Source: Flavobacterium sp. GSB-24
Lineage (GTDB): Bacteria > Bacteroidota > Bacteroidia > Flavobacteriales > Flavobacteriaceae
Assembly (NCBI RefSeq): GCF_027924665.1
Contig: NZ_AP027043.1
Location: forward strand, 4,340,001 to 4,404,000
Length of the DNA stretch: 64,000 nt
Reading direction: 5' to 3'
How positions within the stretch are numbered: the first letter of the stretch is position 1; every line of letters begins with the position of its first letter. The notes beneath the pieces are model-generated. The model was not told where the DNA came from. It ran no database searches and saw only the letters and a list, made by a program, of their open reading frames with translations. Shown in pieces: positions 31,347 to 54,849 of this stretch. The position numbers and the translations under genes were made by a program.

Positions 31347-31437
31347 CAAATATTGAAATTAATCGCATATACTGCTATCAAAAAGTAGTTAACGGTAGTT
31401 ATTTGCCGATTAATAAACAAATATGCCGATTAACGGG
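31347..31437 (-). promoter_or_regulatory. three-box operator S1 and promoter of the HExxH lipoprotein operon
   Basis: Reading leftward: CCGTTAATCGG (31426-31436), TTATTAATCGG (31406-31416), ACCGTTAAC (31388-31396) followed by TACTTTT, and a -7-like AATATTTG (31347-31354). Box periods are 20 and 21 bp. The -7 begins 42 bp after the first base of the last box, as in S2-S4. Box sequences fit LytTR-type sites. Bases 31438-31861 hold nothing supported. Confidence 0.7.
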
Positions 31438-31861
31438 ATCCAATTCTTTGACAGCACTGGAAGATTTTCATGACTGAGAATTTCAGACTCATTATAAAAA
31501 AAGATTGCTTCCATTTTAAAATAGAGGCACTGCTCTTAAAAAGAGGCCAATATCAAAACTGGTTTTAAAATAAATGTTATACAGCTTTTACATAAGTCGG
31601 AAAAAAGATGATGCATTAGCTCCTATAAATGAACCCTTCCTGACTCTTATGTTTTTTTTAATGGAGGAATAATGAATTTAAACCATTAGGCTCAGAGATT
31701 AGAGTAGTATAAAAAGTGGATTCTTTATTTATAACCAGAAAATTCTTCCGCACCCAATAATAATTTAGGTTATCCCAGATTTCAATTATAAATCCGCTTC
31801 AAGGATAAAGCTTCATTAAGCTCATATATGATGTTATAACTAGATGCAATGACTAATAAAA

Positions 31862-32179
31862 TCAAAATATTCCAAGCCGCTCAAGGAGAATTTTGCCTCT
31901 CACCCACTCTAAACCTAAATCGGTAAGGGAACTTTCGTCGGTGTCGTAATTTACAACCACAAGGCCTAAAATTTCCAATTCCAATAAGGCATCAAGAATT
32001 TTTGCCTCATTTTCGATGGCACTACTGGATGAAACCGCAGTGCTTGAAATGCTGTAAAATACCTCCATTATTTCTTCGAAAGGCACGCTGCCAAAATAAT
32101 TACTGCTAAGAGCGATCAGAACTTGATCTAGAAAAGCAGATCTGGCCTTGTCCATCATCCAATTTTCCATTTGATTCAT
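31862..32179 (-). CDS. small hypothetical protein, unknown function
   Basis: 105 residues, helical, acidic, possibly winged-helix-like at the end (ALLELEILGLVVVNYDTDESSLTDLGLEWV resembles helix-wing sequence). No signal or membrane segment and no known family. It stands alone, 120 bp after a leftward terminator. Confidence 0.55.
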   Translation of the reverse strand: MNQMENWMMDKARSAFLDQVLIALSSNYFGSVPFEEIMEVFYSISSTAVSSSSAIENEAKILDALLELEILGLVVVNYDTDESSLTDLGLEWVRGKILLERLGIF

Positions 32180-32302
32180 ATAATTTTATATTCCACAATT
32201 ATTTCTAAAGGCAACTGTATCTTTCAATGCCATTATCTGCTTTCTCCGAACGAAAATTTCGTAACAGTTTTGGTGTCAATATAGTACATCTATTTTCTAT
32301 TT

Positions 32303-32333
32303 AAAAAAACCGCCTAAAAATAATTTAGACGGC
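32303..32333 (-). terminator. intrinsic terminator of the S2 unit
   Basis: Minus strand: CCGTCTAAA pairs with TTTAGGCGG (one G-U/T mismatch tolerated) and T7 follows. It ends whatever is transcribed from promoter S2 ~780 bp upstream. Confidence 0.7.
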
Positions 32334-32458
32334 TTTATCCTGTAACTTACTATTAGCATACTAACTCAAAATAGTGAATAAAAGGAAATGCTCTTTGATA
32401 AAAGCTAATTTTGTTCTGTAATTGACGACCTATAAAATTTTAAACTTTTATTTTATTG

Positions 32459-33062
32459 TTAGTCGGATAAAAATAAACGGTCATTAAGTTGAGAAGCGCT
32501 AAGGATTTCTCCAAAAGCATCGTGAGCTGAAATATTATAATCCCTTATATCTGGTTCTTATTGCCGTTCCGTAAATTTAACTGTCAAATGAAGCTTTATA
32601 TAATTATTCTTTCCAAATATACTCGGATGTAACTTGCTAATATATATTTAACCAAAGCTCTATCTTCCCTTGCCAGTTCCCCGCGATATAACTGGACTCA
32701 CACTTTGAAGCTAAAGAGACACCGCACTCTGTATTGTAACCTCGTACAATTGTCATGTGAAGATGACGCCGAAATCCACTTTTAGCATTTATCGGGAGAA
32801 ATTAAATATTGTGTATCATGCCCCGAAAACCTTGGACCAAAGTAACCCTTTTTAATACTGGCAGCTTTATGTGGATCTTATAAAAATGCATAAAATTAAA
32901 TACAATATTAAAACTGTCCAGACTATAAATCGCACGCACTTATTGATAATGTAAAATTTATTCATAATTTCTTTATCTCATTTAATGGACTTGCAGAGCT
33001 TGCTTTAAATTTTCTTGAAAAAGTAAAATCAAAAAAATATTTTTCCCACCGAATTCAAATCT
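32459..33062 (-). pseudogene. decayed protein gene downstream of operator S2
   Basis: Protein-like segments in switching frames: SRKFKASSASPLNEIKKL, DPHKAASIKKGYFGPRFSGH, then SGFRRHLHMTIVRGYNTECG continuing to GNWQGKIELWLN, then YIKLHLTVKFTERQ, a stop, and ISAHDAFGEILSASQLNDRL ending at TAA 32459. Stops and frameshifts interrupt every frame, so it is non-functional. The family is not recognised. It lies between a well-preserved promoter (S2) and an intact terminator. Confidence 0.45.
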
Positions 33063-33115
33063 AAAAATATTGTCCTGGACAGCCTGTAGGGATTACAGAA
33101 CAACTGTTTCTCCAG

Positions 33116-33207
33116 CAAAGATTTCTCTTTTCCTGTAAACAATAAAATTAAAAGTAGTTAACGGTCATAAATCACAAATTCACCATCCCTTTTTACCGAT
33201 TAACGGC
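33116..33207 (-). promoter_or_regulatory. three-box operator S2 and promoter
   Basis: Leftward: CCGTTAATCGG (33196-33206), a weak middle box GGTGAATTTG (33175-33184), ACCGTTAAC (33157-33165) followed by TACTTTT, and -7-like AATCTTTG (33116-33123). Periods 21 and 21 bp, with the same last-box-to--7 distance as S1, S3 and S4. The only downstream gene is decayed. Confidence 0.65.
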
Positions 33208-33379
33208 ATTTAATCAAGGAAATCTCGATTTTACACAAAATGTTGCTGTAGAAGCTTTAATAACTTTAAAAATCAATACTTTATAAAACTTTAGATCCAT
33301 TTTTTTAACCTACATACGATTAAAATCTAGAAGATTGCCTTCTACTCCGACCATATAAAACTGCTGCATGACAAAAATT

Positions 33380-33469
33380 ACGTTAACGAGCCAATTATGC
33401 CTTTAAGTTACATTATCTGACCGTTAACTACTTTTCAATATGTAAAATACGGTTTAGAAATTAGCTTTA
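33380..33469 (+). promoter_or_regulatory. three-box operator S3 and promoter of the SusC-SusD operon
   Basis: Rightward: ACGTTAACG (33380-33388), GCCTTTAAG (33399-33407), ACCGTTAAC (33420-33428) followed by TACTTTT, and -7-like TAGCTTTA (33462-33469). Periods 20 and 21 bp. Transcription would start near 33475, leaving a ~205-nt leader before the SusC ATG. The 33208-33379 interval between S2 and S3 shows nothing else. Confidence 0.7.
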
Positions 33470-33679
33470 CGTTTTTAACATATAATCTGTCATTTGTTAA
33501 AATAAACTTCTCTTGATTAAGTCAAATTGATAATCATAAAATAATGCCTATGAAAAATTTGCGGATCCAAAAATAAATTTGACTGCAGTCTTGCAATCAG
33601 CAATCGAAAATAATTCTCTCTTAATGAAAATTATTTTTTGATTCGAAGATAAATTAATAAAAACCAAAACAGCCAAAGT

Positions 33680-36600
33680 ATGAAAAACCAAGTAGTCCAA
33701 AAAAAACGATTGTTCTGTCGAAATTTAAAAATAATACTGTTCCAGTTCGTTCTAGGAATTGCGTTGTCAAGTTTCACAGTGCCCATTAAGACACATGAAC
33801 TAAAAAAGCTGGACGCCAAATTAAATGCAGGACCTATTATTAAAGGAAAAGTTACAGACCAAACGGGCAGCCCGCTTCCTGGAGCAACAGTTATGGCAAA
33901 AGGAACAAAAACTGCAGTTTTAACAGATTTTGATGGAAATTTCATTATTGAAATGCCAGCAAATGTAAACCGTATTGTTATTTCTTACGTTGGAATGGAA
34001 ACTAAAGAAATTGGTATAGAAAATATTACACCAACTATTGTTTTAACAGAAGCAGGACAAAATCTTAAAGAGGTTGTAGTTACAACTGGATATGAAAAAA
34101 CTTCAAAAAGAACATTTACGGGAGCAATCAGTAAAATTTCTGGAGCTGAATTAAAAGTGGATGGAGTTGTTGATGTGAGCAGAATGATTGAAGGAAAAGC
34201 TGCCGGAGTTACGGTTCAAAACGTTACAGGATCTTTTGGATCAACTCCAAAAATTACGGTTCGTGGATCTTCTTCTATCTTCGGAGATACAAAACCTCTT
34301 TGGGTTATTGATGGTGTTGTTCAAGAGGATATTATCAATGTAACATTTGCCGATTTAGCTTCAGGAAATTCAGCAACATTATTAAGTTCTGCGGTAGCTG
34401 GTTTAAATGCTAACGATATACAAAGTATTGAAATTCTAAAAGATGCATCCGCTACTTCTATCTATGGTTCAAGATCGTTAAACGGAGTAGTTGTTGTAAC
34501 AACTAAACAAGGCCGCAGAGACACTCCCTTAAAAATTAGTTATTCTGTCGAAAATACAGTGAGAGCAGTTCCTAGTTATACTCAATATGATGTTTTGAAT
34601 TCTCAAGAATCAATGAGTGTTTTTCAAGAGATGAGAGAAAAAGGATATTTGAGCCAAAGCGCATCTTTAACATCAAGATTTAGCGGTGTTTATGGTATTT
34701 TAGCAAAACAGGTTAATCTTTATGATAGCTCTAATGGCTTATATGGTGTAAAAAATGAACAGCCATACATCAATGAATTTTTAAAAAAATATGAGTTAGC
34801 AAATACAGATTGGTTTAAAGTTTTATTTAGACCTTCTATTACTCAAAATCACTCTTTAAGTTTTTCAGGTGGAGGAAAGAATAATACTTTTTATGGTTCT
34901 TTAGGTTATTATACTGATCCAGGATGGACTCTGGCAGATAATGTGAAACAATTATCATCAAACTTAAAAGGAACATTTTATATCAATGATAGATTAAATA
35001 TTACTTTATCAACGCTTGCATCTGCTCGTGATCAAGAAGCACCTGGTACTTACGAAAGTAAAGATGATGTTGTATTTGGTAAAATTACGAGAGATTTTGA
35101 TATTAATCCTTTCAACTATGTTTTGAGTACAAGTAGAACATTAAGACCTTATGATGATAATGGAAATTTAGAATATTATCAAAATAACTGGGCTCCAATG
35201 AATATTCTTAACGAATTAAAGAATAATAAACTTGGTATAAAAGTAAAAGATATTCGTTTTCAAGCTGATTTAGATTATAAAATCAATAAAAATTTGACAT
35301 ACAATTTTACTGGTTCAGCTCGCTATGCTACTACATCCAGAGAGCATAAAATTTACGAAGATTCAAATGTCGTAGGTGCGTATAATGCTGGTGTTGGAGA
35401 TAATCCAAATACGCAGATTCAAAGAGATAACGTGTTTTTATACCAAAATCCAAATGACTTAACTGCGCCTAAAGTATCAGTTTTACAAAACGGTGGATTT
35501 TTAAGAAAATACACAAATGATATGACTTCATATAATGTTAGAAATAGTGTCACATACAGAAACACATTTAATGAAAAGCATGAACTTGAAGGTTTTTTTG
35601 GTACAGAGTTTAGATCTGTAGATAGAAACAACGACAATTTTACAGCTGCAGGTTTGCAATATGAAAAAGGACTAAGTGCCTTTATTGACCCTAAATTGAT
35701 TGAAAAATTGGTAAATGAAGGAAATACTTATTACGATTTTGGTGCTGAGAGAGAGCGTACTGTTGGTTTCTTTGGAAAAGTAGGTTATACTTATGACCGC
35801 AGATATACAGTATCAGTTACTGGACGTTACGATGGATCGAATAGACAAGGTGATACAGGGTCTTCAAGATGGCTGCCTACATACACAGTTAGTGGTAAAT
35901 GGAATATCAAGGAAGAAAAATTCATGAGAGATGTAGAATCTATAAACAATTTAGCGCTTAGAGCTTCTTACGGTCTAACGGCAACTGCGGGTCCAGCAAC
36001 AAATTCATTAGCGATTTATAAAAGTTACATTACAGATCGTTTTGCAACAACTGACAGAGAAAATGCAATACGTATAGAAGATTTGCAAAATCAGGATTTA
36101 ACTTGGGAAAAACAATACGAAACTAATATTGGTGTAGATTTAGGAATGTTTAGGAACAGATTGCAATTTACAACTGATGTTTATAGACGTACAGCATTCG
36201 ATTTGATTGATTATGTAATTACATCAGGAGTTGGAGGAGAGGCAGTTAAAATGGGGAATAATGCCGATATGGAAACTAAAGGTATCGAAATAGGTTTTAC
36301 CACTCAAAATATTGTTTCGCCAGATTTTAAATGGTCTACTACATTGAACTTTTCTATTTATGATCAAAAAATCACAAATTTAGCAAATAGACCTTCAGCA
36401 TTTGATTTAATAGCTGGTAACGGAGGAAATACAGTAGGACATCCTAGAAACTCATTGTATTCGTATCAATTTACAGGATTAAACAATGAGGGTTTACCAA
36501 CTTTCAAATTGCAAGACGGTGCTGAAAATAATATTACAGAGGCAAATTTTCAGGATACTAATGATGTAATGAAATATTTGAAATACGAAGGATCAGTTGA

Positions 36601-37123
36601 ACCAAATAAATCAATTGGTCTTGCCAATACATTTACTTATAAGAGCTGGTCATTGTATGTGTTTATAGTAGGATCAGGAGGAAACAAAGTGAGATTAAAT
36701 CCAGTTTACAGTAATAGGTATACAGATCAAACTGTTTTTACAAAAGAATTTGCTAACAGATGGATAAGTCCAGGAGATGAAAACTTCACTGATGTTCCTG
36801 TTATTGCTGACCAATTAATGAACAGAAATTATGGCAGTAATAATTTACAAATTGCTTATAACACTTATAATTTCTCTGATGTTAGAATTGCCAGCGGTGA
36901 TTTTGTCAGATTAAAAAACATCTCTCTAGGCTGGGAATTTCCAAGTGATTTTAAGAGAAAGTTAGGGGTGAGTACTTTTAATTTGAAAGGATCAGCAGTT
37001 AATCCGTGGTTAATTTATTCAGATAAAAAATTACACGGTCAAGATCCAGAGTTTCGTAATACAGGGGGCGTAGCTTTTCCAATTACAGCACAGTACACTT
37101 TTGCAATAAACCTCTCATTTTAA
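33680..37123 (+). CDS. SusC/RagA-family TonB-linked outer membrane protein
   Basis: 1147 residues, full length. The signal region (residues 20-40, ILFQFVLGIALSSFTV) is followed by the carboxypeptidase-like domain (IIKGKVTDQTGSPLPGATV) and the plug (VVVTTGYEKTSKRTFTGAIS, IEGKAAGVTV, DASATSIYGSRSLNGVVVV), then a 22-strand-type barrel ending in YTFAINLSF. It imports a ligand captured by the SusD partner. First gene of a four-gene operon under operator S3. Confidence 0.95.
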   Translation: MKNQVVQKKRLFCRNLKIILFQFVLGIALSSFTVPIKTHELKKLDAKLNAGPIIKGKVTDQTGSPLPGATVMAKGTKTAVLTDFDGNFIIEMPANVNRIVISYVGMETKEIGIENITPTIVLTEAGQNLKEVVVTTGYEKTSKRTFTGAISKISGAELKVDGVVDVSRMIEGKAAGVTVQNVTGSFGSTPKITVRGSSSIFGDTKPLWVIDGVVQEDIINVTFADLASGNSATLLSSAVAGLNANDIQSIEILKDASATSIYGSRSLNGVVVVTTKQGRRDTPLKISYSVENTVRAVPSYTQYDVLNSQESMSVFQEMREKGYLSQSASLTSRFSGVYGILAKQVNLYDSSNGLYGVKNEQPYINEFLKKYELANTDWFKVLFRPSITQNHSLSFSGGGKNNTFYGSLGYYTDPGWTLADNVKQLSSNLKGTFYINDRLNITLSTLASARDQEAPGTYESKDDVVFGKITRDFDINPFNYVLSTSRTLRPYDDNGNLEYYQNNWAPMNILNELKNNKLGIKVKDIRFQADLDYKINKNLTYNFTGSARYATTSREHKIYEDSNVVGAYNAGVGDNPNTQIQRDNVFLYQNPNDLTAPKVSVLQNGGFLRKYTNDMTSYNVRNSVTYRNTFNEKHELEGFFGTEFRSVDRNNDNFTAAGLQYEKGLSAFIDPKLIEKLVNEGNTYYDFGAERERTVGFFGKVGYTYDRRYTVSVTGRYDGSNRQGDTGSSRWLPTYTVSGKWNIKEEKFMRDVESINNLALRASYGLTATAGPATNSLAIYKSYITDRFATTDRENAIRIEDLQNQDLTWEKQYETNIGVDLGMFRNRLQFTTDVYRRTAFDLIDYVITSGVGGEAVKMGNNADMETKGIEIGFTTQNIVSPDFKWSTTLNFSIYDQKITNLANRPSAFDLIAGNGGNTVGHPRNSLYSYQFTGLNNEGLPTFKLQDGAENNITEANFQDTNDVMKYLKYEGSVEPNKSIGLANTFTYKSWSLYVFIVGSGGNKVRLNPVYSNRYTDQTVFTKEFANRWISPGDENFTDVPVIADQLMNRNYGSNNLQIAYNTYNFSDVRIASGDFVRLKNISLGWEFPSDFKRKLGVSTFNLKGSAVNPWLIYSDKKLHGQDPEFRNTGGVAFPITAQYTFAINLSF

Positions 37124-37137
37124 CAATAAAATTGATT

Positions 37138-38625
37138 ATGAAAAATATAAAATTAACACTGTCATTATTATTACTAGCTGGTATTAGCAGTTGTGATGAT
37201 TTTCTTTCAGAGGTACCAGATAATAGAACGCAGATAGATACTCCTGAAAAGATATCCGAATTGTTGGTTACAGCATATCCTAAAACTACTTACTTTGTTA
37301 TTGCTGAGACAATGTCAGATAATATTTTTGACACTGAAGTAAAAACAAATGCTAACATAAGCAATGAGGAAAGTTTTAATTGGGACATGCAGACTCAAAT
37401 TGAAAGAGATACTGAAAACGGATTTTGGACAGGATCTTACGAGGCTATTGCAGCGGCAAATCAAGCCTTGGCTTCGATCGAAAAACTTGGAAGCCCTGGT
37501 ACTTTAAATCCTCAAAAAGGAGAAGCATTAATTGCAAGAGCATACAACCATTTTATGTTAGTTTCTTTGTGGTCAAACAGATATAATCCAGCGACTGCAT
37601 CGACAGATTTAGGAGTTCCTTATGTTACAGAACCCGAAACTGCCTTGTTGGCAAAATATAAGCGTAATACAGTTAAAGAAGTGTTCGACTTTATAGAAAA
37701 GGATCTTATTGAAGGAATGAAGTTTGTTACCAGCAACTACAAAGAGCCTAAATATCATTTTACAGTAGATGCTGCTAAAGCGTTTGCTTGCCGTTTTTAC
37801 TTGATAAAAGGAGACTGGGATAAAGTATTGGAGTATTCAGAAGGACTTGGTTCTAAACCAACGAAACTTAGAAATTATACAGCTTTTAATGCTGCGGCTT
37901 TTGCTCAAATGCCGATCGAATATTCTAAGGCAGAGCAGGATACTAATTTATTGATTAATTATCCTAATTCAATTGCAAATAGAGCAGCGTCATATAGATT
38001 TGCTTTTCCATCACTTAAATCAGATGAATTGCTAGGACCTCAAACGAATATGTGGGGAAAAGCCAACTTAATAAATGCAAATGGTTACTATTATGGTGGT
38101 TCAAATGTTTTTATTCCTAAGCTTTATGAGTATTTTAAATATACAAATGTTACAGCTGGAATTGGAGAAGCTTACACCGCTACGGTTTTATTTAGTAACG
38201 ATGAAATGTACCTAAACCGTATTGAAGCTCTTGTAATGAAAAACAGATTTACAGAAGTAAATACTGAATTAGGATACTTTTTAGGAACAAGAACCTCAGG
38301 CTATAATCCAGCAACTGATATTTTAGATGAAGCCAGAGTAACTGCAAAATATCCAGTAGTTGCAAATGAATTTACTCCTTTCTATGAATTAAGCGCAGTT
38401 CAGACTTCTTATATCAAAGCAATTGCAGAGGCAAGAAGAAGAGATTTTATGAGAGAGGGTCTTAGATGGTTCGATATTAAACGTTTTAATTTAGTAGTAG
38501 AGCACAATACTCTTGAATTTGGTAAAGTGGTTCGAAAAAACATTCTAGAGAAAGATGACAAACGCAGAGCTTTACAAATACCGTTAAGAGCTTCAAGTAA
38601 TGGTATTGAGAAAAATCCTAGATAA
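37138..38625 (+). CDS. SusD/RagB-family nutrient-binding lipoprotein
   Basis: 495 residues from the ATG at 37138 (14 bp after the SusC stop). Lipoprotein signal MKNIKLTLSLLLLAGISSC, then DDFLSEVPDNRTQIDTPEKI, TPR-like helices (GEALIARAYNHFMLVSLW) and the family C-terminal signature IAEARRRDFMREGLRWFDIKR. It caps the SusC barrel at the surface and binds the substrate. Confidence 0.94.
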   Translation: MKNIKLTLSLLLLAGISSCDDFLSEVPDNRTQIDTPEKISELLVTAYPKTTYFVIAETMSDNIFDTEVKTNANISNEESFNWDMQTQIERDTENGFWTGSYEAIAAANQALASIEKLGSPGTLNPQKGEALIARAYNHFMLVSLWSNRYNPATASTDLGVPYVTEPETALLAKYKRNTVKEVFDFIEKDLIEGMKFVTSNYKEPKYHFTVDAAKAFACRFYLIKGDWDKVLEYSEGLGSKPTKLRNYTAFNAAAFAQMPIEYSKAEQDTNLLINYPNSIANRAASYRFAFPSLKSDELLGPQTNMWGKANLINANGYYYGGSNVFIPKLYEYFKYTNVTAGIGEAYTATVLFSNDEMYLNRIEALVMKNRFTEVNTELGYFLGTRTSGYNPATDILDEARVTAKYPVVANEFTPFYELSAVQTSYIKAIAEARRRDFMREGLRWFDIKRFNLVVEHNTLEFGKVVRKNILEKDDKRRALQIPLRASSNGIEKNPR

Positions 38626-38645
38626 ATTTTAATTAGAAAACTAAT

Positions 38646-39503
38646 ATGAAAACAGTAAAAATATATACAGCAGTGCTTATGACAGGGGTATTACTTCTTT
38701 CTTCTTGCGCACATGAAGACCAGCCAAAAGAAAGCTGGTTAGATTTTTCGGTACCAAATAAAACGGATTTAGATAAATGGATTGATGTAAATTTCTTAGA
38801 TCCTTATAATATCAACGTGTACTATATATGGAATCAAAATCTGGTAGATAACAATAGATATTTATATCCGCCAAAAGGAGAAAAAGTCCAGCCAGCAATG
38901 GAAGTAGTTAAGAAAATCTGGATTGATAGTTATACGACTATTGGAGGAGCTGATTTTGTTAAGAAAATTGCACCGAGAGAGTTTGTACTTGTAGGAGGAA
39001 TAAACTTAAATACAAATGGTACAGTAACATTAGGACTTGCTGAAGCGGGTCAAAAAGTTACTCTTTTTCAGGTAGACAATCTTAACAAAAAAAATAGAGC
39101 GAACGTAACGCAGTTTATTCATACCATTCAGCATGAGTACGTTCATATCTTGAATCAGACCAAGCCTTTTGATGAACAAGCTTGGGCTAAATTAACGCCG
39201 ACTGGATATACTACAAGCTGGTATACTGCAGCAATAGCTACTTCAAGAAATTTAGGTTTTATAACAAGTTACGCCAGATTAAGTATTTATGAAGATTTTG
39301 CTGAAACTGCTGCTACAATTTTAACGAGCTCAAAAGCGGAGTATGATGCGATTTTAGCTGGTGTTACAGATACTGCGGCAAAAGCTAATATAAAAGCAAA
39401 AGAAGCACTTGTAGTGAAATATTATAGAGATGCTTTCAATATTGATTTTTATGCTTTAAGAGATGAAGCTCAAAAAAATACTGATTTTGTAATAAATAAT
39501 TAA
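38646..39503 (+). CDS. substrate-import-associated HExxH zinc metallohydrolase lipoprotein
   Basis: 285 residues. Lipobox VLLLSSC. FIHTIQHEYVHILNQTKPF holds the HExxH zinc site (HEYVH), and YARLSIYEDFAETAATIL likely supplies the third ligand (a Glu). This type of protein is regularly encoded next to SusC/SusD pairs and is thought to process imported peptides or glycopeptides at the surface. It is 20 bp downstream of susD and functionally parallel to the HExxH lipoprotein at 30021. Confidence 0.88.
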   Translation: MKTVKIYTAVLMTGVLLLSSCAHEDQPKESWLDFSVPNKTDLDKWIDVNFLDPYNINVYYIWNQNLVDNNRYLYPPKGEKVQPAMEVVKKIWIDSYTTIGGADFVKKIAPREFVLVGGINLNTNGTVTLGLAEAGQKVTLFQVDNLNKKNRANVTQFIHTIQHEYVHILNQTKPFDEQAWAKLTPTGYTTSWYTAAIATSRNLGFITSYARLSIYEDFAETAATILTSSKAEYDAILAGVTDTAAKANIKAKEALVVKYYRDAFNIDFYALRDEAQKNTDFVINN

Positions 39504-39526
39504 GGACAATTCTAAAAATAGATATT

Positions 39527-40882
39527 ATGAAAGTAAAAAATATATACAAGTACTTAGTGGTTTCTTTAGGGGCTTTGCTTTTGGGATCATGTACAAGCAC
39601 AGAAGTAGATTCGGATTTTGATCAAAATGCGACGGAGAGATTAAGCGGACGCCAAAAAGAATTGAATGACCTACTACTTTCCTCTGCAGAAGGATGGAAA
39701 GCAGTTTATTATACTGATAGTACACAATTAGGTGGTTGGACCCATTTAATGAAATTTCTGCCAGAAGGAAAAGTAGATATGGCATCAGATTTTACTATAG
39801 GTACAGATACAGACACAAAAACGTATACAAGTCAGTATGAAATCCAGATGGGAAGTACTGTGAGCCTAGTTTTTACAACACAAAACAGAATACATCTTTT
39901 ATCTGATGCTGGTAATTCTCCAACAGCTTCGCTTTTAGCAAAAGGATATTTGGGAGATTTTCAATTCTATTATTATGGACAAAAGGATGGAGATATTCTT
40001 TTTAGAACAAATAGAAACGGACATTTTCTGCGTTTTATAAAAGCAACAGCACAGGATTGGGCAGATCTGTCAAAAAATAAAGCGACCATAAGCAGTTTAA
40101 ATGGAGATATGTACAGTCCGTTGTTTAGGATAATGGAAACAAATGATGGAGCAGCTACACATAAGTTTGACTTTAGCTATAATACGAACGCTCGTTTTGG
40201 TACCGCAACATCCTTAGAACCAGGTAGTCAGGAGGCATATGATCTCGCATTTGCATTTACACCAACAGGAGTTGTTACCAAACTTCCAGTAATCGTCAAA
40301 GGTCAAAAACTTACGAATTTCATTTACGATAGTGCAACAAGTAACTTTGTAGCAACTGGCACAAATGAAGTTAGTGCTACTATTAAATATACCAATATAC
40401 CTCCAAGGCCGACAGATGATTATAACATATTATTGCCGGGAAAAGTTTATTCCAGATTTGGCTACTATCCCGACGATTACACAGCTGATGCCTCTACGAA
40501 TTCCAAATTATTTCAAGCAGAAATAGATAAAATTAATGCAAATTTACCTGATGGCCAATATCTCACTTCTGTACAATTATATCTAAATCATTCACAGGGT
40601 AGCTTTATTTACTATACTTTCGAGGGCAGAGGATCTTTACTGCATTTTGTAGATGTGCAGGAAGATGCTGTAAACAAAAAAATTATTTTAAATCATAAGT
40701 CTTGGAACAAAGACACAACTGCTGCGACTCCTGCATTCATTGACGGATTTGATAAAAACCTGATGGATGCTAATGGGCTGTATGTTAAAAAAGAAAATTT
40801 CAAACTAAAATATTCAAATGCCGTCTATACTTTTACGAGTTCTTCAAGTCCATTTAGAATGACCGCTTGGCAGCTGATCTAA
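39527..40882 (+). CDS. DUF4302-like lipoprotein
   Basis: 451 residues. Signal and lipobox (YLVVSLGALLLGSC), then SGRQKELNDLLLSSAEGWKA and WTHLMKFLPEGKVDMASDF, typical of DUF4302 lipoproteins that close SusC-SusD-metallohydrolase operons. The role is probably surface ligand binding. It is the last gene before a strong terminator. Confidence 0.87.
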   Translation: MKVKNIYKYLVVSLGALLLGSCTSTEVDSDFDQNATERLSGRQKELNDLLLSSAEGWKAVYYTDSTQLGGWTHLMKFLPEGKVDMASDFTIGTDTDTKTYTSQYEIQMGSTVSLVFTTQNRIHLLSDAGNSPTASLLAKGYLGDFQFYYYGQKDGDILFRTNRNGHFLRFIKATAQDWADLSKNKATISSLNGDMYSPLFRIMETNDGAATHKFDFSYNTNARFGTATSLEPGSQEAYDLAFAFTPTGVVTKLPVIVKGQKLTNFIYDSATSNFVATGTNEVSATIKYTNIPPRPTDDYNILLPGKVYSRFGYYPDDYTADASTNSKLFQAEIDKINANLPDGQYLTSVQLYLNHSQGSFIYYTFEGRGSLLHFVDVQEDAVNKKIILNHKSWNKDTTAATPAFIDGFDKNLMDANGLYVKKENFKLKYSNAVYTFTSSSSPFRMTAWQLI

Positions 40883-40910
40883 TAATTTTATTTAGTGCTC
40901 GATCTTAAGA

Positions 40911-41077: not shown

Positions 41078-44000
41078 TTATTTGATCTTAAACTTAATTG
41101 TGACTGCAGTTCCCAAACTCTGATCTTCAGTTTTTAGATCTTCAATCTGTAAAATAATCTTTTGACTATTAGATGAGGAGTTTATTAGTTCTATTCTCTC
41201 TTTAACAATTGCTGTTGACCAGGACTTATAGACAAACTCCCTCTTTTGCGTTAATTTTGAAGCCGCTTCTCTTCCTACTCCATTATCTTCAACTTTAACT
41301 ACACAAAAATCATTTTCAATAAAACATGTTATCTTTATCGCCTTTTCACCCTCTTTTGGACTTAAGCCATGAATAATTGCATTTTCTACAAAAGGCTGAA
41401 TTAACATTCCTGGTATAAATATATCTTCCTTATTCACATTTTCATCTGTAAAAATCGAAAACTTCAACTCTTCATTTAGCTGCAGACTGCTTAGTATAAG
41501 GTACTGATTAATATAATCCAATTCATCTTTTAAAGAAACAGATTCCTGCTTAGAGATATCTAACGTTAAGCGAAGCAGTCGTGAGAAGGCGCCGAAATAT
41601 CTATTCGCCTCCTCTTCCCCTTTCAAAATCATAATGCTCTGCATATTATTTAATATATTAAAGACAAAATGAGGATTCATTTGTGCTTTTAATGCATTTG
41701 ATTTTAAAATAATTATTTCCTTTTCTCTTTCAAAAATCTTTTTCTGTTTTCTAATTTTTCTTCTGAATATATATATTACAAATGCAATTAACAATAAAAA
41801 TATAAAACCGAGAAAAAAAGGTGTCTTGTAAAAAATCTGTTCAACAAGTACATTTATTTTAATATGATCCGTTATTTCAGATCCATAAAAATCTTTCACT
41901 TTAAGCTCTATGACAAATTTGCCAGGCGGCAGATTACTCAATTTAACAATGCCTATTCCATCACGACCTACCCATCCATCAGTTAATCCGTTAATACGAT
42001 AGAAATAAGTGCTTCTACGATTATTATACATATCATTTGTAGTGAATTCAACCGAAAAATAATTTTTATTGTACGGCAATGTAATACTTCTATTTTCATT
42101 TAAATAATCTGTAACATTTTCTTTTCTTTCTATGGAAAAATATTCTGTTTTAGAAATAAATATTTTAGCATCTCTTTTCTTAAAATTAAATTCTTTAGGA
42201 TTTAACTCAACAATACCATTTAATCCGCCGAAATAGAAACTGCTGTCATTTTTTTTATAAAATGATCTGAGAATACATTCATTATCAGGCAATCCGTCCT
42301 GCAAATGAAAATTATTAAATTTCATGTTTTTTTTATGGAGTGCAGATATCCCAAAAAAGGTCGAGAACCAAAATTGGCCATCCGCTTCCAATATGCCATA
42401 TACAGCATTGTTAGACAAGCCGGCTGATTCGTCATAAACATCAATTTTCTGGGTTTTTAAATTTAGACAGACAGCCCCAGAATTATGCGTTCCGAGCCAG
42501 ATATTTTTATTTGCATCTTCGTGTAGCACGTAAACTTTTCTATTGGAAAAAAAAGAGTTTTTAGCCTTATAATCTATCCATTTCTTTCCTTTGCCTTTAA
42601 AGTACAGACCATTATTAGTGGCTACCCACAAATTGCCATTGCCGGATTGCAAAATATCATAAACAGTTAAACGGTCAGAATTAATATTGCCGAGCTTGCA
42701 TCGAAATAATTTTCCAGATTTTTTATCCAAAATAAATAGGCCTTTATCGGATCCTACCCAAAACGAATCTTTTGATTTTGCTTTTAGAAATGTACAATTG
42801 AAATCGAATCTCTTTCCATATTTTCTGGTTGCAATTACATTTGTTCTTAAATCAATGGATGTTATAAAAGCACCTTCACCAGCTGCCCATAAAATTCCAT
42901 TTTGATCTATTAGCATAGAATTATAAATATTGCCAGAATTGGACGGGTCATAAATTTTTAAAAGAAGCTGGCCTTTAGCGTCTAATTTAAAAAGTCCAGT
43001 AGAAGAGCATACATACAAATTTCCTCGATCATCAGAAACTATTCCTTTGGCACTAATTGGCGAATTCTTAATTTGCAGGTACTTTTTAAATCTTGCATCT
43101 GTAGGTTTAAGCATAACAATATTATAATTATTCGAAAACCAGATGATGTTATTAGAATCCAGAGTTAGGCTGTTATTAATAATTTTCCTATCAAAATGTA
43201 ATTCAAAAGTATCAGTAACTGTAAATTCAATTTTCTCTTTATTAAATTTTTCTATAAAAACCTTGTCTGCTTGAACTGTAAAAAATTTTGAGTTTTTATA
43301 TGAGAAGTTGTCATACGGGCAATTAAACATTTGAATATTTAAATTCTTTAAATAGCTATAATTATACTTTTTTCCATTAAAAAGAACGGTGCCGCTGGTA
43401 TGGGGCTTGAAAATTTCTCCATCCTGTGTAAAATGTAGGTTAGATCCATCTTCTTTAAAGTTCAAAATGAACTGCATGCCTTTATCGTCGATCAGATATA
43501 AGTTCCAGCGAGATTTTACCAGTATTTTTCCCTGGTCCAATTCTTTTATCACTTTTAGGGGCAGATTTTCAGCACCAGTGGCCGCGCCGTGCTGTTTCTT
43601 ATGTGCAGCTATCCTTGGAAGCTCTGGAGACTGAAATATCTTCTGATTGTAATTTTTATCGATTTTTATAACGTAATTTTCACCGGTACTGATCCATATA
43701 TTATTTTTCTTATCTTGAAGCGCGCTTACATCTTGATTGCTTCTGATCTCATGTTTTGATTGCCATTTAATGTGCTTGACATTAAATGTATTTGGATTTA
43801 TTACATAGGCCCCATCAGGATTAATAGCCCAGACGTTCCCCTTTCTATCCTGGGTCCAAGCATTGATACAGATCGCAGTAATAGAAAAACGCTTTTCATC
43901 ACTGTCTTTCATAGTAAATTTAACAATGTTTATCCCATCGTATTTGAAGAATGTTCCTTGTTCATTTACTGCATACCAGACAAAACCATCTCTGTCAATA

Positions 44001-44134
44001 AAAGGCTGGCTGGCAACAAAATAAGATTGTGAAAGATCATGAATATGAACTGCATTTGTTGTATAGTTTTGGCTAAAAACATGAACAGAAAAAAAAAACA
44101 AAAGGGGATTTAAACAAAAAAATATAGCTCGCAT
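41078..44134 (-). CDS. LytS-type sensor histidine kinase with beta-propeller (Reg_prop) and Y_Y_Y domains
   Basis: 1018 residues from the ATG at 44134, chosen because it opens the signal peptide MRAIFFCLNPLLFFFSVHVFSQ. Repeated NIWISTG, GNVWAIN, GNLWVATNNGLY and NIWLGTHNSGA motifs form periplasmic propellers. YFYRINGLTDGWV marks the Y_Y_Y domain. One membrane helix (FFLGFIFLLLIAFVIYIF) precedes a LytS-type kinase with KAQMNPHFVFNILNNMQS (phospho-His), QPFVENAIIHG (N box) and VEDNGVGR. Such kinases pair with LytTR regulators. None lies in the window, but LytTR-like operators flank the gene on both sides. Confidence 0.93.
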   Translation of the reverse strand: MRAIFFCLNPLLFFFSVHVFSQNYTTNAVHIHDLSQSYFVASQPFIDRDGFVWYAVNEQGTFFKYDGINIVKFTMKDSDEKRFSITAICINAWTQDRKGNVWAINPDGAYVINPNTFNVKHIKWQSKHEIRSNQDVSALQDKKNNIWISTGENYVIKIDKNYNQKIFQSPELPRIAAHKKQHGAATGAENLPLKVIKELDQGKILVKSRWNLYLIDDKGMQFILNFKEDGSNLHFTQDGEIFKPHTSGTVLFNGKKYNYSYLKNLNIQMFNCPYDNFSYKNSKFFTVQADKVFIEKFNKEKIEFTVTDTFELHFDRKIINNSLTLDSNNIIWFSNNYNIVMLKPTDARFKKYLQIKNSPISAKGIVSDDRGNLYVCSSTGLFKLDAKGQLLLKIYDPSNSGNIYNSMLIDQNGILWAAGEGAFITSIDLRTNVIATRKYGKRFDFNCTFLKAKSKDSFWVGSDKGLFILDKKSGKLFRCKLGNINSDRLTVYDILQSGNGNLWVATNNGLYFKGKGKKWIDYKAKNSFFSNRKVYVLHEDANKNIWLGTHNSGAVCLNLKTQKIDVYDESAGLSNNAVYGILEADGQFWFSTFFGISALHKKNMKFNNFHLQDGLPDNECILRSFYKKNDSSFYFGGLNGIVELNPKEFNFKKRDAKIFISKTEYFSIERKENVTDYLNENRSITLPYNKNYFSVEFTTNDMYNNRRSTYFYRINGLTDGWVGRDGIGIVKLSNLPPGKFVIELKVKDFYGSEITDHIKINVLVEQIFYKTPFFLGFIFLLLIAFVIYIFRRKIRKQKKIFEREKEIIILKSNALKAQMNPHFVFNILNNMQSIMILKGEEEANRYFGAFSRLLRLTLDISKQESVSLKDELDYINQYLILSSLQLNEELKFSIFTDENVNKEDIFIPGMLIQPFVENAIIHGLSPKEGEKAIKITCFIENDFCVVKVEDNGVGREAASKLTQKREFVYKSWSTAIVKERIELINSSSNSQKIILQIEDLKTEDQSLGTAVTIKFKIK

Positions 44135-44623
44135 ATTGCAGTTTAAACAATTAAATCTTAATAATTGCAAAACAAATCTGATGCTATTGCTTTTAACTTT
44201 TCTGCAAAACAGTAAACATTTAGAAAGAAGCTCCATAAACTAAAAAATTTTAGTCAGTTGATTAAAACATACAGCTTGAATCGTTTTTGAATCTGTAGTT
44301 TAAGCAAACATAATAAAAATAGGTTATTGAAATAATTCCTGCTGCTTAATTTTTTAAATATTAAAAAAAATTAAGAGTCGATAATTAAGAAAGAAAATAA
44401 GAATCTCAATAATCATTAATTCATCTTAGATTGGCGCAAGCTTATTCATTGGTCTCCTAATTGATATCTCACATCAAAATATTGTTCCTCAAGTGAATTT
44501 TACATTCGACTGATAATTTTAGGCAGGCAAATAAAAACATTCATTACTGGTAAGTTTAAGGGAAACGGCAATATTTTATCGATAAATTTTCTCTTCATTC
44601 GAGATTTCTAAAACAACTAAAAA

Positions 44624-45701: not shown

Positions 45702-45718
45702 AATATTTCCTTAATCCG

Positions 45719-51700: not shown

Positions 51701-54619
51701 TTTAACCCTATAAGGGGTAGCCTTCAGTCCACTAATAACAACAGGAGATTCAGAAGATGATTTCCATGGTTCTCCGTCAATGGAATATTGGAATGCATCT
51801 GAAAAATTTTCGGCATATATGCTCAATGACCCGCTGCTTTCTCCCTTACATTTCACCGGAGTGCTTTCAACTCTGGCATTAAACACTTTATTGGCATTAA
51901 CTTTAATTTTAAATATGGACTGTGCCCCACAGGATTTTGGAACCTGAAATACCTTAATATCATCTATTGCAACATCGTTACCATTCTCTTTTCTCACATT
52001 CGAACGGATAATTAAACGTAAGGAAGTGTTATTGCCAGGATTAAGAGTTAGTGGGGTTTCCGGGAAGTGTTTCCAGTCTGTGTTAGAGACTGATCTGGAA
52101 ATGGGACCTGTGGCAAACCATGAAATCTCATCTCCATTGGCATCGACCAATGCAATTCTTAAATTAGGGTCTTCATTTCCTGCACCTGGCCGCATTAAAT
52201 TCATAGCATAAAAATCAAAATTAATGGGCTGATTCGGAATCACATCATTAATTTTCTTTTCGTATAGAATTGTTGTCTCAGGTATCTGGCTACCAATATT
52301 TACAGCCAAAAATCTTCCTTTAGGATCATTACCATTACTGGTGTGGTCTTTGGGATATCTCCATCCCCAATCGAAAGTTGCTGCCTGATTGATAGAACTG
52401 GTCACCGAATAATCTCCATCGTTGATAGCATAGCTGCCGTTGCAATAAGTGTCGGCCCGTTCCGGCAGCTGCCTTTCAAAACAATAATAAAAACTGTTAA
52501 TACCTGGCGATGTAGTGTTTTCTCCGCTGCCAAAACTTTCATCCAGCAGATTACTGTAAGTACTTACTGCCAACACGTTATAGTCTACGGTAATATAATG
52601 GTCCCCTGGGGGAATATTAACAAATTCCGTAGGATGGGCCGCATTAGTATTAGGCTGACCATCTAGGTAAAGCTGATACGAGTACTTAGGATCACCTGCT
52701 CCTCCGTTAATAATGACAGCAGAATTTGCAGTCCCATTGCAGTTGTAAACAGGATCATTAACAGTAATATTTGGTGGAGCGGGCTTTGGATCTAATTTTA
52801 GTCCCGCCATTTCAAAAATGCATCCTGCGGCATCTTTTATAAAAACTGAATATGGTCCGCCAGGTTTAATGTAGCCTTCATTCTGGGTTATCCAGCTCTT
52901 TTGATTATCAAAACTGTACAGATACAGATTAGGAGCAGGAAATGGAGTTCCCCCCTGCGGATTGGTAATTCTTGCAATTCCTTCCGTAGTATCAGATGAT
53001 GGCCCACAGCCCGAAAGTGAGCCAATGCCTGCAGAGGCTGTCAAAGGCGTTGTAGCTCCAATATCTATAATCTTAGAATTATCTGAACAGCTGCTGCCAT
53101 TATTTATACCACTCTTTGTATATCTCACAACTATACTATACTGTCCATTTTTCAAATTATTGAAAATGATGCCCGAACTGGTTCCTTTTATAAAATTTAC
53201 GCCATTATCTTTACTGTATTCCATTGTAAAACCATTATCATTTGTAAGCTTTATATTAATGCTGCTGTCTTCTCCGCATTTTCCGCTGGTTACTACAATA
53301 TCATATTCTGGTTTGGTTACATTGGGTATTGAAATTTTCTTATCCACAATGCAGCCGTTCACATCTTCAACACGTATGGTATATGTTCCGCCTTTTTTAA
53401 CGGTCACTATACCATTAGGAACGTCTTGAAAACCCTCATTATCTATATCAACCGAATATTTATAAGGCTTAACTCCCCCGGTAGCAGATCCTTTAATTAA
53501 GCCGTTAGTACAAACTGTAAACGTTTGGGAAACGGTAGAATTGTTACTAATCTTAGTTGCGGAAGTAATTCTAATACTCTGTTCTTCAGTAGCGCACGAT
53601 CCATCTACAGCAGACACAATACGATAGAATCCTGCATCTAACCCGGTAAATTCAAATTCTGAAAGCGATACTGGCCCAATAGTACTTAAAGGAACAATAT
53701 TTTCATTTTTATATATTTGATACTTGAGCTGTTTATTTACAGCATTTGTAGTTACTTTAATAGTTCCTTTTTCACCAGAACATAAAGGCTGCCCCGCAGT
53801 TAGCGAAGATGTAAAAGCAATAGCGTTTATGGCAATATTTTTAATACTGAAGACACAGCTCCCATCTACCCCCTTCAATCTTATAAAAATATTGTATGAT
53901 CCTGGATTTGAAACTGTAAATGTATTGCTGTCCTGCCAATTGCTTGGAGCCGGGTTTGTAGTGCAGCTGTACTCATAATCCTTATTAAAGCCTCCAGCAA
54001 TTATCTGTCCGGGAATGCTACAGCCGTTACTGTCAGTAATAATATCACTTTTCACTATTCCCTTTGGATCCAGCTCATTTTTATATACATTAAAGTAAAA
54101 GACAGATTCTGTATTATTTTGATTTCTAATTTTCACCCTAAATTCTCCACTACTGTTAGCAGAATAATCAGCTCCTTCTCCTACATCCGCCCAAGTGCAG
54201 TTTGCATCTCTGCTTGGACAGCTTCCGCTGGACGGAGATGCGCATCCTCCTGTTTTCCTCTGCCATATAATAAAAAGCGCATCTTTTATACCTGTTTGGA
54301 TTAATCTGCTGTCATTTAAGCCACATAGAAACAATTTTGGAAGCAGAGTCCCATCATTGGGACATTGAGAAACTACACCTGCGTAAGGGCTTTGGGCATA
54401 TTTTGTTACTGGATTTGCAATTACCTCCGAATCTGTAATACTAGAAATCTGCCTATAGGCCGCGATTTTATCTTCAAGATACTGATTGTCAGTATTTAAA
54501 AAAAAATTAAAATCCTTCTTGACATTGAAATTAAAGGCTACCGCATTTTGCGAATGCACTGCAAAAACCTGCATTATAAGCAAAATTAATAGTAGCTTCA
54601 GAATAGTAGTTTTTTTCAT
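45719..54619 (-). CDS. giant SprB-repeat surface protein with T9SS type B sorting domain
   Basis: 2966 residues. Signal peptide MKKTTILKLLLILLIMQVFA. More than twenty SprB-type repeats (for example TCNGANNGAITVTISNENN, CFGNNDGIINVVAQGGTG) of about 70-80 residues, each closing in GxYxVxVxDxxGC. Around residues 690-900 a different block without SprB motifs (DESFGSGENTTSPG, GRFLAVNIGS, DWKHFPETPLTLNPGN, AIDDIKVF) looks like a jelly-roll domain. The end, CIPNYFTPNGDGIYDTWGPG to EFRGHVTIYR, is the gliding-associated type B domain recognised by T9SS. Probably a cell-surface adhesin of the gliding-motility SprB kind. Operator S4 lies 140 bp upstream. Confidence 0.95.
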   Translation of the reverse strand: MKKTTILKLLLILLIMQVFAVHSQNAVAFNFNVKKDFNFFLNTDNQYLEDKIAAYRQISSITDSEVIANPVTKYAQSPYAGVVSQCPNDGTLLPKLFLCGLNDSRLIQTGIKDALFIIWQRKTGGCASPSSGSCPSRDANCTWADVGEGADYSANSSGEFRVKIRNQNNTESVFYFNVYKNELDPKGIVKSDIITDSNGCSIPGQIIAGGFNKDYEYSCTTNPAPSNWQDSNTFTVSNPGSYNIFIRLKGVDGSCVFSIKNIAINAIAFTSSLTAGQPLCSGEKGTIKVTTNAVNKQLKYQIYKNENIVPLSTIGPVSLSEFEFTGLDAGFYRIVSAVDGSCATEEQSIRITSATKISNNSTVSQTFTVCTNGLIKGSATGGVKPYKYSVDIDNEGFQDVPNGIVTVKKGGTYTIRVEDVNGCIVDKKISIPNVTKPEYDIVVTSGKCGEDSSINIKLTNDNGFTMEYSKDNGVNFIKGTSSGIIFNNLKNGQYSIVVRYTKSGINNGSSCSDNSKIIDIGATTPLTASAGIGSLSGCGPSSDTTEGIARITNPQGGTPFPAPNLYLYSFDNQKSWITQNEGYIKPGGPYSVFIKDAAGCIFEMAGLKLDPKPAPPNITVNDPVYNCNGTANSAVIINGGAGDPKYSYQLYLDGQPNTNAAHPTEFVNIPPGDHYITVDYNVLAVSTYSNLLDESFGSGENTTSPGINSFYYCFERQLPERADTYCNGSYAINDGDYSVTSSINQAATFDWGWRYPKDHTSNGNDPKGRFLAVNIGSQIPETTILYEKKINDVIPNQPINFDFYAMNLMRPGAGNEDPNLRIALVDANGDEISWFATGPISRSVSNTDWKHFPETPLTLNPGNNTSLRLIIRSNVRKENGNDVAIDDIKVFQVPKSCGAQSIFKIKVNANKVFNARVESTPVKCKGESSGSLSIYAENFSDAFQYSIDGEPWKSSSESPVVISGLKATPYRVKVRYNEKSPDCDFDIPAAVTSSEFFLVDASATEATCSDGAVVTVSASGGTPPYNFILKDSNGKETTFFSDGNAGGILKKISPGKYTVVGYDKNSCSNSSKDVNLVIKQTDPPQAVVNKTNGFCFDGKNSVPITIDIAGGKEPFTYKVSRDGGFEYEAFRPSFLERSFTYQAVAAGSYDFIIMDANGCSSSAKVVIDEQLSTEAVLTKNLTCAAIPQNAAIIKATVTGGAAPFGYRAKRNSANFSGLPISFNGTFFEYSASASGSYIFEITDSKGCIKETSAVVVKDPADVTVSYETTEPVCDGAANGTISFNALSGESPFSFSIDNGKSFQDSNKFGGLSAGVYDYIVKDSKGCTASGNLTLNNPIAITMQIHANGIKCGPVKPGSFDVNVANGGKAPYIYNLYNNAMEVIDSYTAATQADASAVHNFPNLQFGDYYIYATDANGCEFKSDKLRIEPPPYLKVSSTIAGATCADGVSVTLEVAGGTGPAFTYTIFGNGRTSGPLASSSFTFDKLEQNMDYVFEVVDSNGCPSYLEIKTPSISNLKIDPITAKEVTCNGAADGEVAFTVSQYNATKLRYEVRDNLTNNEVIPSLGDSVNGLAGDDFTAVIKGIKPGNYSLYVKEMDGTLCSASKMFKIGQPASALRAEIVSVSNANCRTGALVTVNAAGGAGSYQYAAAVSPEVPSLFGGNNVLELAEPGTDWNILVKDANGCTFTLTQITAKDPSPSIALSVVDKCSGENEFTVRITETAAGKGSYFMKIDNGDFIAIGALPYDITGLASGNHSVTVKDANGCADTKTIKIDAPVNIIASASVLPGCETNNGVISLTPSGGTGSYSYSINPMHPGIMINGDKITGLTADNYTITMQDSKNHCTANAAVTLSAATPVKFEAHARNTTCNGANNGAITVTISNENNNLPYTYSISGGSIASISDQTSAEFTDLPAGSYTVEVKSNRGCTAKMDVKVDQPEQLEVTANGTQYSCNRDSNGFNYAVIAADNVKGGAGAGSYVAYQFLRDGTEVQNGSSNIYSEYDHKGGNYKINVYDKNNCMGTSETIAIKPFTVLENISINKVLPITCQNLESIKVSAAVKGGAGSLQYQLTGMDKTAIAPQTNATGEFEGLDIGDYLINVTDTVTGCSIEEYYHVYNPNTFEIQVHSLNTEICYGTNEGSIELVLVDSQPAPSNDAGAFDYTITGPMPEISGKSENAGPIKINGLVAGDYTVAIKLAGSPKCEARSGFHISQPQAKLDIQAKETPITCKEGNNDGTITATASGGWTERVYQYELIGPVSHAYSEEYYFNNLTPGHYKVNVKDGKGCVATAIVDLRAPDAIKFAASAASPVLPCYGDGSGVIRVSNVTGGVGANYAYSLKYTSPSGEVITSGPQQSNEFRGLFSGNYTVVVSDGFSCEAVSEIITISDPVKIEVDLSQNTEITCLSDATLILKATGGTSPYVYSEDGASYGASFDSQTIFSVKPGMHQYWVKDSKGCVSELSGTVRVEPIVPLSVELDVKNAGVNCKGDATAMIAAESKGGMGDYEYSLLDRNGVEVRPAQKAGIFDSLSADLSPYTVHVRSGDCEINSQAVNVSEPDQSLRSTYTVSPVSCFGNNDGIINVVAQGGTGNIKYAISPNLNMFVESGKFERLPKGVYTIIVQDIMGCSNIYKDIEITEPAFLAASEIPNSRIPEICKGDKNGAFFIEIKGGTPPYFESLDNENGNYSPVNGSVKDYLNQSEGKHTAYIKDNNGCASEVEVIMQKAVILNPSVEIQYDCVNNRQYNIVTVTVDRSNSDVEDVDYSLDSDQGPWQPNNTFSNVDSGRHYVVARHTNGCTAKSDSFEIRPYSPLTLAPFPQQDEMNVISVRAAGGIPEYEYSLNGGDFTSSNNFKIYQSGDYEVKVRDRNGCTSSVTVPMVYIDICIPNYFTPNGDGIYDTWGPGCTNIYDKLEFSVFDRYGRLINKYHYGQKWDGKYKGAELPSGDYWYVLKLNDKKDDREFRGHVTIYR

Positions 54620-54759
54620 AAATGATCAATTATTTAAAAGCATTTTTTTTTCTTTGGAAGAAATACAATGGTGAACTTTGTTTTTTTACAGCTAAATTTC
54701 TTGGTTTATTTTTTATCAAAATTTTATACTGTTTTTTTGAAATAGGGATTATTGATGTG

Positions 54760-54849
54760 TAAATATCAAAAAATGAGAAGGCAAACGATAACCATAAGTA
54801 GTTAACGGTCTTAAATCGGATAAAAACGTTTCATTCTTCAGATTATCGC
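54760..54849 (-). promoter_or_regulatory. three-box operator S4 and promoter of the giant adhesin operon
   Basis: Leftward: GCGATAATCTG (54839-54849), a middle box ACGTTTTTATC (near 54818-54829), ACCGTTAAC (54801-54809) followed by TACTTAT, and -7-like GATATTTA (54760-54767). Periods 20 and 21 bp, with the last-box-to--7 distance identical to S1-S3. Bases 54850-55058 show nothing more. Confidence 0.65.

Follow-up and report, generated by a model that had tools for sequence, protein, structure and literature searches.

Why should several promoters in one stretch of a Flavobacterium genome carry the same direct repeats at the same distance from their core promoter, and which protein would read them? 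An earlier note on a 64,000-nt stretch of Flavobacterium sp. GSB-24 (contig NZ_AP027043.1, positions 4,340,001 to 4,404,000; hereafter the window) described four such sites, S1–S4, and ascribed them to a single activator bound over about four helical turns and governing a surface-protein regulon. We examined these sites in the genome of GSB-24 and across the genus. From sequence comparison, we consider it highly probable (roughly 85%) that a single LytTR two-component system, encoded on the same island, uses the shared sequence as its operator. We found no operator described for a Flavobacterium LytTR response regulator among open-licence papers in PubMed Central; LytTR operators are known elsewhere.

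Anatomy and phase of the sites

All four sites were present when the sequence was inspected, with the first box of S3 and S4 starting one base further out than had been reported. We number each site from the first base of its last box (ACCGTTAAC). The TACTT said to follow this box belongs to a longer box, ACCGTTAACTACTT, which occupies positions 1–14 in each of S1–S4, and an element fitting NANNTTTR lies at positions 43–50 in 4/4. S1 (31347..31437, minus strand) comprises box1 CCCGTTAAT (31437–31429), a weak box2 (about 31417–31409), box3 ACCGTTAACTACTT (31396–31383) and the −7 element AATATTTG (31354–31347). S2 (33116..33207, minus strand) has box1 GCCGTTAAT, box3 ACCGTTAACTACTT (33165–33152) and −7 AATCTTTG (33123–33116), and its box2 is unrecognisable. 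S3 (33379..33469, plus strand) has box1 TACGTTAAC, a weak box2 GCCTTTAAG, box3 ACCGTTAACTACTT (33420–33433) and −7 TAGCTTTA (33462–33469), and S4 (54760..54850, minus strand) has box1 TGCGATAAT, box2 AACGTTTTT, box3 ACCGTTAACTACTT (54809–54796) and −7 GATATTTA (54767–54760). The claim that this phasing is hard to obtain by chance held: at most three of the four sites were co-phased at any offset in 5000 dinucleotide-preserving shuffles (5 shuffles), against 4/4 observed.

The count of four was too low, as seven sites were found. S5 (21804..21893, minus strand) lies within the window and consists of box1 TACGTTAAT, box2 AACGTTAAA, box3 CCCGTAAACTACTT (21853–21840), TTTG at positions 20–23, and −7 TACATTTA (21811–21804). 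S6 (C1:4408754-4408843) and S7 (C1:4413851-4413941, box1 also TACGTTAAT) are located just outside it. S5–S7 were recovered by searching for the box alone, yet they match the phase set by S1–S4; when all seven sites were shuffled (n = 5000), no more than 4/7 were co-phased (1 shuffle), compared with 7/7 observed. The string ctatatagg was noticed by eye upstream of S4, S5, and S7 (window 54990–55000 and 21935–21945; L042 ~9958–9970).

Three boxes per site was correct for the outer two, less so for the middle one. Across 18 sites, box1 starts 40–42 bases ahead of box3, and box2 starts 20–21 bases ahead of box3, with box2 weak in several. Box1 is close to TACGTTAAT at S1–S3 and identical to it at S5 and S7. 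Box2 can be made out clearly at S5–S7 but is weak or missing at S1–S4: it is poor at S1 and S3, cannot be recognised at S2, and reads AACGTTTTT at S4.

Position 20, which was specified in no search pattern, is T in all seven sites of GSB-24, in 36/36 own-type sites of four genomes, and in 51 of the 53 sites overall (seven genomes). This T is the first base of a four-base −33 element lying 19 nt before the −7. S5 has the full TTTG-N19--7 arrangement; the −33 is otherwise degenerate. Since the TAnnTTTG box of F. psychrophilum is placed at −12 to −5 in the part of its promoter map considered here (PMC9723704), the last box would fall at about −54 to −46.

Genome-wide search

The box by itself is unremarkable, because CCGTTAACTACTT with up to one mismatch matched 21 times in the 5.35-Mb genome and its reversed control 26 times; it was rejected on these counts as a genome-wide marker. 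Seven of the 21 matches carry the −7 at 43–50, and these all lie outside frames of 100 codons within 52 kb (C1:4361804-4413898). None of the remaining 14 has a −7 at that position, and 12 of them lie inside frames of 100 codons.

The earlier note had suggested a genome scan with a composite motif. CGTTAACTACTT-N28-TANNTTTR, with up to one mismatch, matched seven times genome-wide; these matches are S1–S7, all intergenic and in the one 52-kb cluster, and the reversed control matched once. At two mismatches, there were 9 matches versus 14 for the reversed control, the two extra matches being scattered.

Comparison with known LytTR promoters

In the portion of PMC6193735 used here, LytTR promoters are described as having 9-bp direct repeats 12 (11–13) bp apart, with a strong bias to a distance of 10 bp before the −35. 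By arithmetic on this layout (9 + 10 + 4 + 19), the −7 starts at position 43, and the published arrangement thus explains the exact phasing. The Flavobacterium sites show the LytTR repeat spacing, a proximal repeat about 10 bp before the −33, a known box, and a linked REC+LytTR protein with an FhRhHRS-like motif. As judged from these features, the operators appear to be the known LytTR architecture joined to a Bacteroidota −7, with a box added to make three and the last one extended.

There is a close likeness to PlnC and PlnD of Lactobacillus plantarum, which recognise TACGTTAAT repeats separated by 12 bp (PMC2714321, relevant passages). The box of these REC+LytTR proteins is identical to box1 of S5 and S7, the period is 21, and the repeats lie directly upstream of the −35/−10. 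PlnC/PlnD sites have two repeats, whereas the Flavobacterium sites combine a strong 14-bp proximal box with one or two weak ones. Unlike PlnC/PlnD, the Flavobacterium system also has the sigma-A −7 of Bacteroidota, a kinase with a periplasmic propeller, and surface-protein targets. AgrA of Staphylococcus aureus, in the sections of PMC4227749 relevant here, likewise has a LytTR domain acting on direct repeats, a poor core promoter with a non-optimal spacer, and the FhRhHRS motif, but belongs to a quorum peptide system; its proximal repeat is centred near −60, compared with near −50 in Flavobacterium by the F. psychrophilum −12 to −5 convention.

LytTR regulatory systems (LRS), including LRS-like operons of Bacteroides, share repeats 11–13 bp apart placed 10–11 bp before the −33/−35, and positive autoregulation (PMC6193735, same portion). 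The Bacteroides LRS-like promoters end in TATCTTTG after a 19-bp spacer; by our own count, their −7 would start at 46 rather than 43. LRS rely on membrane inhibitors and have no kinase, whereas the Flavobacterium system has a kinase and a REC domain. The promoter map of F. psychrophilum shares the TAnnTTTG sigma-A −7 and places gliding/T9SS genes in special promoter classes, but invokes alternative sigma factors (SM4-6) for them; LytTR and direct repeats have no occurrences in its main text (PMC9723704).

The linked regulator and kinase

No LytTR gene lies inside the window itself. LytTR genes are numerous in Flavobacterium genomes, and that of GSB-24 has 19. One of these, at C1:4409003-4409764 (L042:5003-5764), ends about 160 bp before S6 and encodes a 253-aa REC+LytTR response regulator (RR) matching PF00072 and PF04397 above cut-offs. 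It reads FFRIHKS where the LytTR signature is FhRhHRS (signature as given in the cited part of PMC4227749). When RR was compared with solved structures, many receiver domains were among the best 60 of 103 matches, and the LytTR domain was poorly covered in three alignments. The leader containing S7 belongs to a Reg_prop/Y_Y_Y/His_kinase membrane sensor (C1:4410648-4413686), and the gene order behind S7, on the same strand, is kinase, REC-only protein, RR. RR carries a receiver domain and its gene comes after that of a histidine kinase, which sets it apart from LRS, where a membrane inhibitor replaces the kinase. RR is most likely the regulator that would bind these operators, to judge from its position and the comparisons below.

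The REC-only protein (L042:6159-6590; C1:4410159-4410590) is related to RR, without the LytTR domain, and is also present in G187; it is possibly a phosphate sink or a decayed duplicate. A second Reg_prop/Y_Y_Y/His_kinase sensor (41078..44236, minus strand) may provide a second input, because it is 60% identical to the kinase encoded directly before the regulator on contig C16 of G390. No operator was found before this second sensor.

We suggest the following mechanism. The S7 membrane kinase, with its periplasmic propeller, would respond to a signal and phosphorylate RR, its presumed partner. RR molecules would then align along the same face of the DNA, bound to direct-repeat boxes spaced one per two helical turns: the strong 14-bp box ACCGTTAACTACTT nearest the promoter, preceded by one or two weaker boxes of 9 bp. 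The last box would lie at about −54 to −46, before a promoter that combines a weak −33 with a sigma-A −7 close to consensus, an arrangement in which bound RR would recruit RNA polymerase. The circuit would act back on its own kinase through S7 and drive the gene after RR through S6, as well as the SprB-like adhesin with SprF, the SusCD/metallopeptidase operon, and lipoproteins.

That the boxes lie wholly ahead of a poor −33 leads us to read RR as an activator. The same protein might instead repress, or both activate and repress, in the manner of PlnD: in L. plantarum one set of repeats serves PlnC for activation and PlnD for repression (PMC2714321, as above), and the REC-only relative adjoining RR could be read in the same direction. 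We regard this as unlikely, since the boxes stop short of the −33 and leave the −7 uncovered, the −33 is poor at every site except S5, as in activator-dependent promoters, and the kinase itself stands behind a site. Of the activator over about four helical turns proposed earlier, the single regulator is thus retained; activation is suggested by site position, and several sites have a weak middle box.

Co-occurrence across the genus

We searched 398 genomes for RR and scanned 203 Flavobacterium genomes with the composite (up to one mismatch), so that the composite covers about half of the 398. Among 199 genomes of the genus, the composite matched 7 times in GSB-24, 4 times in G187, and 5 times in G151; 8 genomes had one match and 188 had none. 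RR is 89% identical in G187, 72% in G151 (185 residues, contig end), and 53% in G111, and reaches at most 47% in the remainder of the 199. The 398-genome search added G390 (Flavobacterium sp. 245), which has an RR of 74% and a paralogue of 63% identity. This genome, chosen by its RR, has 13 composite matches, all on its two RR-bearing contigs. Four or more sites were found only in the four genomes with an RR at least 72% identical (203 scanned). Conversely, G230, of the same species as GSB-24, has no RR at E ≤ 1e-65 and no composite match at up to one mismatch.

One of the five G151 matches (C158:49313) is probably due to chance, and resembles a two-mismatch match of GSB-24 (L052). The reversed composite reaches 4 matches per genome (G083, G162), and the count of four in G187 is therefore unremarkable by that control; it is the forward background of at most one match in other genomes, together with the clustering, that carries the co-occurrence argument. 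When sites were chosen by the box, the strict NANNTTTR stood at 43–50 in 5/7 sites of G151 and in 10 of the 18 in G390, where a further 5 fitted with one mismatch and 3 did not fit. The sites in related genomes are not independent and are partly the same sites by descent.

Co-divergence of regulator and boxes

G111 and G334 (F. endophyticum), with RR at 53% identity, have no own-type composite matches. Within 40 kb near RR, each has three exact matches to NCCNNNNNNTACTT-N28-NANNTTTR (reversed control, 0). Their boxes are altered to ACCAGTTAT or ACCAGTTAC, that is CC(A/T)(G/C)TTA(C/T)TACTT, with periods of 20/21 and the −7 at 43. Across 396 genomes, the variant CCWSTTAYTACTT-N28-NANNTTTR matched 6 times in G334, 5 times in G111, 6 times in G014, and once each in 11 others, compared with 5 in total for the reversed control. 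None of the 17 multi-site matches falls inside a frame of 120 codons. Because the −7 stood in the search pattern, the phase of these sites carries no independent weight; T20, found in 15/17, and the upstream boxes do. Among the five LytTR genes of G014, one with about 35% identity to RR is directly preceded by an exact generic match. Two of the five G111 sites have no obvious downstream gene. On the minus strand of G111:C32, operators at L107:158598 and 164375 (contig coordinates) are correctly phased, face away from the kinase, and have no evident gene behind them.

With RRs less than about 50% identical, the exact pattern is lost. G090 (RR 47%) has two generic matches, and G067 and G313 (RR 45%) have no exact one. 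In 80 LytTR loci of named genomes searched with a spacer of 28, there were 6 matches versus 1 for the reversed control, all in L198 (G390) and L199 (G334); the other 78 loci gave no match at this spacer. A freer three-box scan is insensitive, because it recovered only 2 matches in known positives. It gave 3 matches versus 1 for the control in the group that includes L203 and L204 (Flavobacterium sp. ENC and LC2016-23; RR 40%), with one match in each of these two loci, and 3 versus 2 among loci below 40%. The sites at L203:3619 and L204:3419 end in GCCACTTATAACGA with TAATTTTG at 43–50, and the Treponema bryantii LRS box pair ACCACTTAT/GCCACTTAT equals the boxes in these two loci (PMC6193735, same portion). 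That they belong to the series is suggestive only.

The proposal of one DNA-binding protein for all sites thus gains comparative support, as the operator co-occurs with RR and changes with it across genomes. Could one of the 18 remaining LytTR proteins of GSB-24 be that protein? One of the 19 LytTR genes (C1:4434656, 38% identical) does lie about 21 kb beyond S7. In our view this is very improbable, as the RR gene beside S6 is the only LytTR gene among the sites, and the site numbers track RR orthologues and their divergence (a comparison run for RR alone of the 19). The flanks (1.5 kb) of the genome's own LytTR genes showed no enrichment of the box geometry: S6 was recovered, and besides it there were matches at just two loci, with similar reversed controls.

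AraC-type proteins can bind 20-bp-spaced direct repeats, and an AraC-family gene is present both in the site cluster, near S6 (L042:2089-3111), and in G187. This protein is scarcely credible as the reader of the boxes: the box is the LytTR box, the match in G187 has an internal TGA, and no match was found at E ≤ 1e-25 in 197 of the 199 genomes, including the site-bearing G151, on which ground the AraC neighbour was rejected. Equally hard to sustain is a recent duplication of one promoter without selection on the operator: some G390 sites and three G334 island sites are near copies of one another, but the bases separating boxes and −7 in GSB-24 vary freely while the box, T20, and −7 are kept, the orthologous S7 and S4 sites of G187 keep boxes and phase with the remainder diverged, and alignments gave no support for duplication.

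Targets

Returning to the operators, the genes behind them agree with what had been described: HExxH-SusC genes at S1 and S3, an adhesin with PorP/SprF at S4, and gene remnants at S2. S1 precedes a 406-aa lipoprotein with HEYGH (30021..31241, minus strand; no Pfam or NCBIfam match), whose relatives are found on contigs of G187, G151, and G390, and a truncated SusC-like fragment. Behind S2, the decayed stretch (31450..33115, minus strand) retains traces of another 406-aa gene (42% over 43 aa) and of a neighbouring 340-aa gene known from G390 (45% over 73 aa). S3 leads an operon (33680..40882, plus strand) encoding SusC-like, SusD-like, Peptidase_Mx1 (HEYVH), and DUF4302 proteins, and operons of this type also lie downstream of sites in G390 and G151. 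The S4 targets are a 2966-aa SprB-repeat adhesin with a T9SS type B sorting domain (45719–54619, minus strand) and PorP/SprF (44715–45701, minus strand). S5 precedes a 262-aa predicted lipoprotein (20742..21530, minus strand; no Pfam match), and S7 the kinase itself. S6 precedes a 118-aa protein (L042:4223-4579) starting ILVHDSS, which is conserved in both G187 (77%) and G390 (60%) and matches neither Pfam nor NCBIfam; its fold prediction had a mean pLDDT of only 40.5.

Sites also stand before the adhesin orthologues in G187, G151, and G390, and other sites in these genomes variously precede the kinase, SusC, the 406-aa protein, an MreB-like protein, or large lectin-like proteins. Some lie at some distance before ordinary metabolic genes, such as proline dehydrogenase in G151. 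In G390, two adjacent small peptides of 69 and 63 aa (no Pfam match), with double-glycine leaders recognised by eye, are encoded behind an S5-like site. An ABC exporter with a C39 peptidase domain lies 3 kb past these peptides (G390:C12, L136:9675-10100 and 12262-14409), the operator being nearly identical to S5, and the set is bacteriocin-like by appearance. The adhesin cluster of GSB-24 also encodes an MreB-like protein (window 55059–56093), an actin homologue being unusual in an adhesin island, and its orthologue in G151 has its own operator (L104:4189, two mismatches). The idea of a surface-protein regulon fits the adhesin, SusCD/metallopeptidase, and lipoprotein genes; the regulon is not one of surface proteins alone, because it includes its own kinase and, in one relative (G390), double-glycine peptides and a C39 exporter.

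Island setting

The locus is accessory, as comparison with the same-species genome G230 indicates. Collinearity with G230 (96.6% over 16 kb) breaks off at window position 18600, immediately past tRNA-Tyr (18346..18427, plus strand), and what lies beyond is absent from that genome. Degenerate copies of the tRNA-Tyr 3′ end and the bases that follow it occur at 28951..29129 (plus strand; 71% over 183) and, beyond S7, at 78425–78587 on the window scale (75% over 164). The copies flank two segments, the first holding S5 and the second S1–S4, S6, S7, and RR. The gene after tRNA-Tyr is an IS3-like transposase (18727–19887), not a tyrosine integrase, and a DDE transposase fragment lies at 28258–28629; no integrase was identified among the island genes scanned. 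The island is not distinct in GC (0.340 vs 0.332 and 0.336), and its right-hand end was not found in 40 kb of G230. The SprF of G230 is of the housekeeping type only, 68% identical to the island copy; GSB-24 also has the housekeeping type, at C1:930240.

Implications

As a broader picture, we tentatively suggest, at somewhat less than even odds, that Flavobacterium carries exchangeable island-borne surface kits, each equipped with its own propeller-kinase/LytTR pair and an operator code private to it. RR and boxes would diverge jointly under a fixed geometry (box, 10 bp, −33, 19 bp, −7), which would let kits exist side by side within the genus without cross-talk. Such kits may include an SprB/SprF adhesin set additional to the housekeeping one, and those of some strains also double-glycine peptides and a C39 exporter. 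Regulator, operator, promoter geometry, and targets are now tied together well enough for direct tests. The natural RR variants (89, 74, 72, 63, 53, and about 35% identity) with matching operators may offer a route to a LytTR recognition code, and the system would provide a regulatory entry point to accessory adhesins of the SprB type, which the type IX system secretes.
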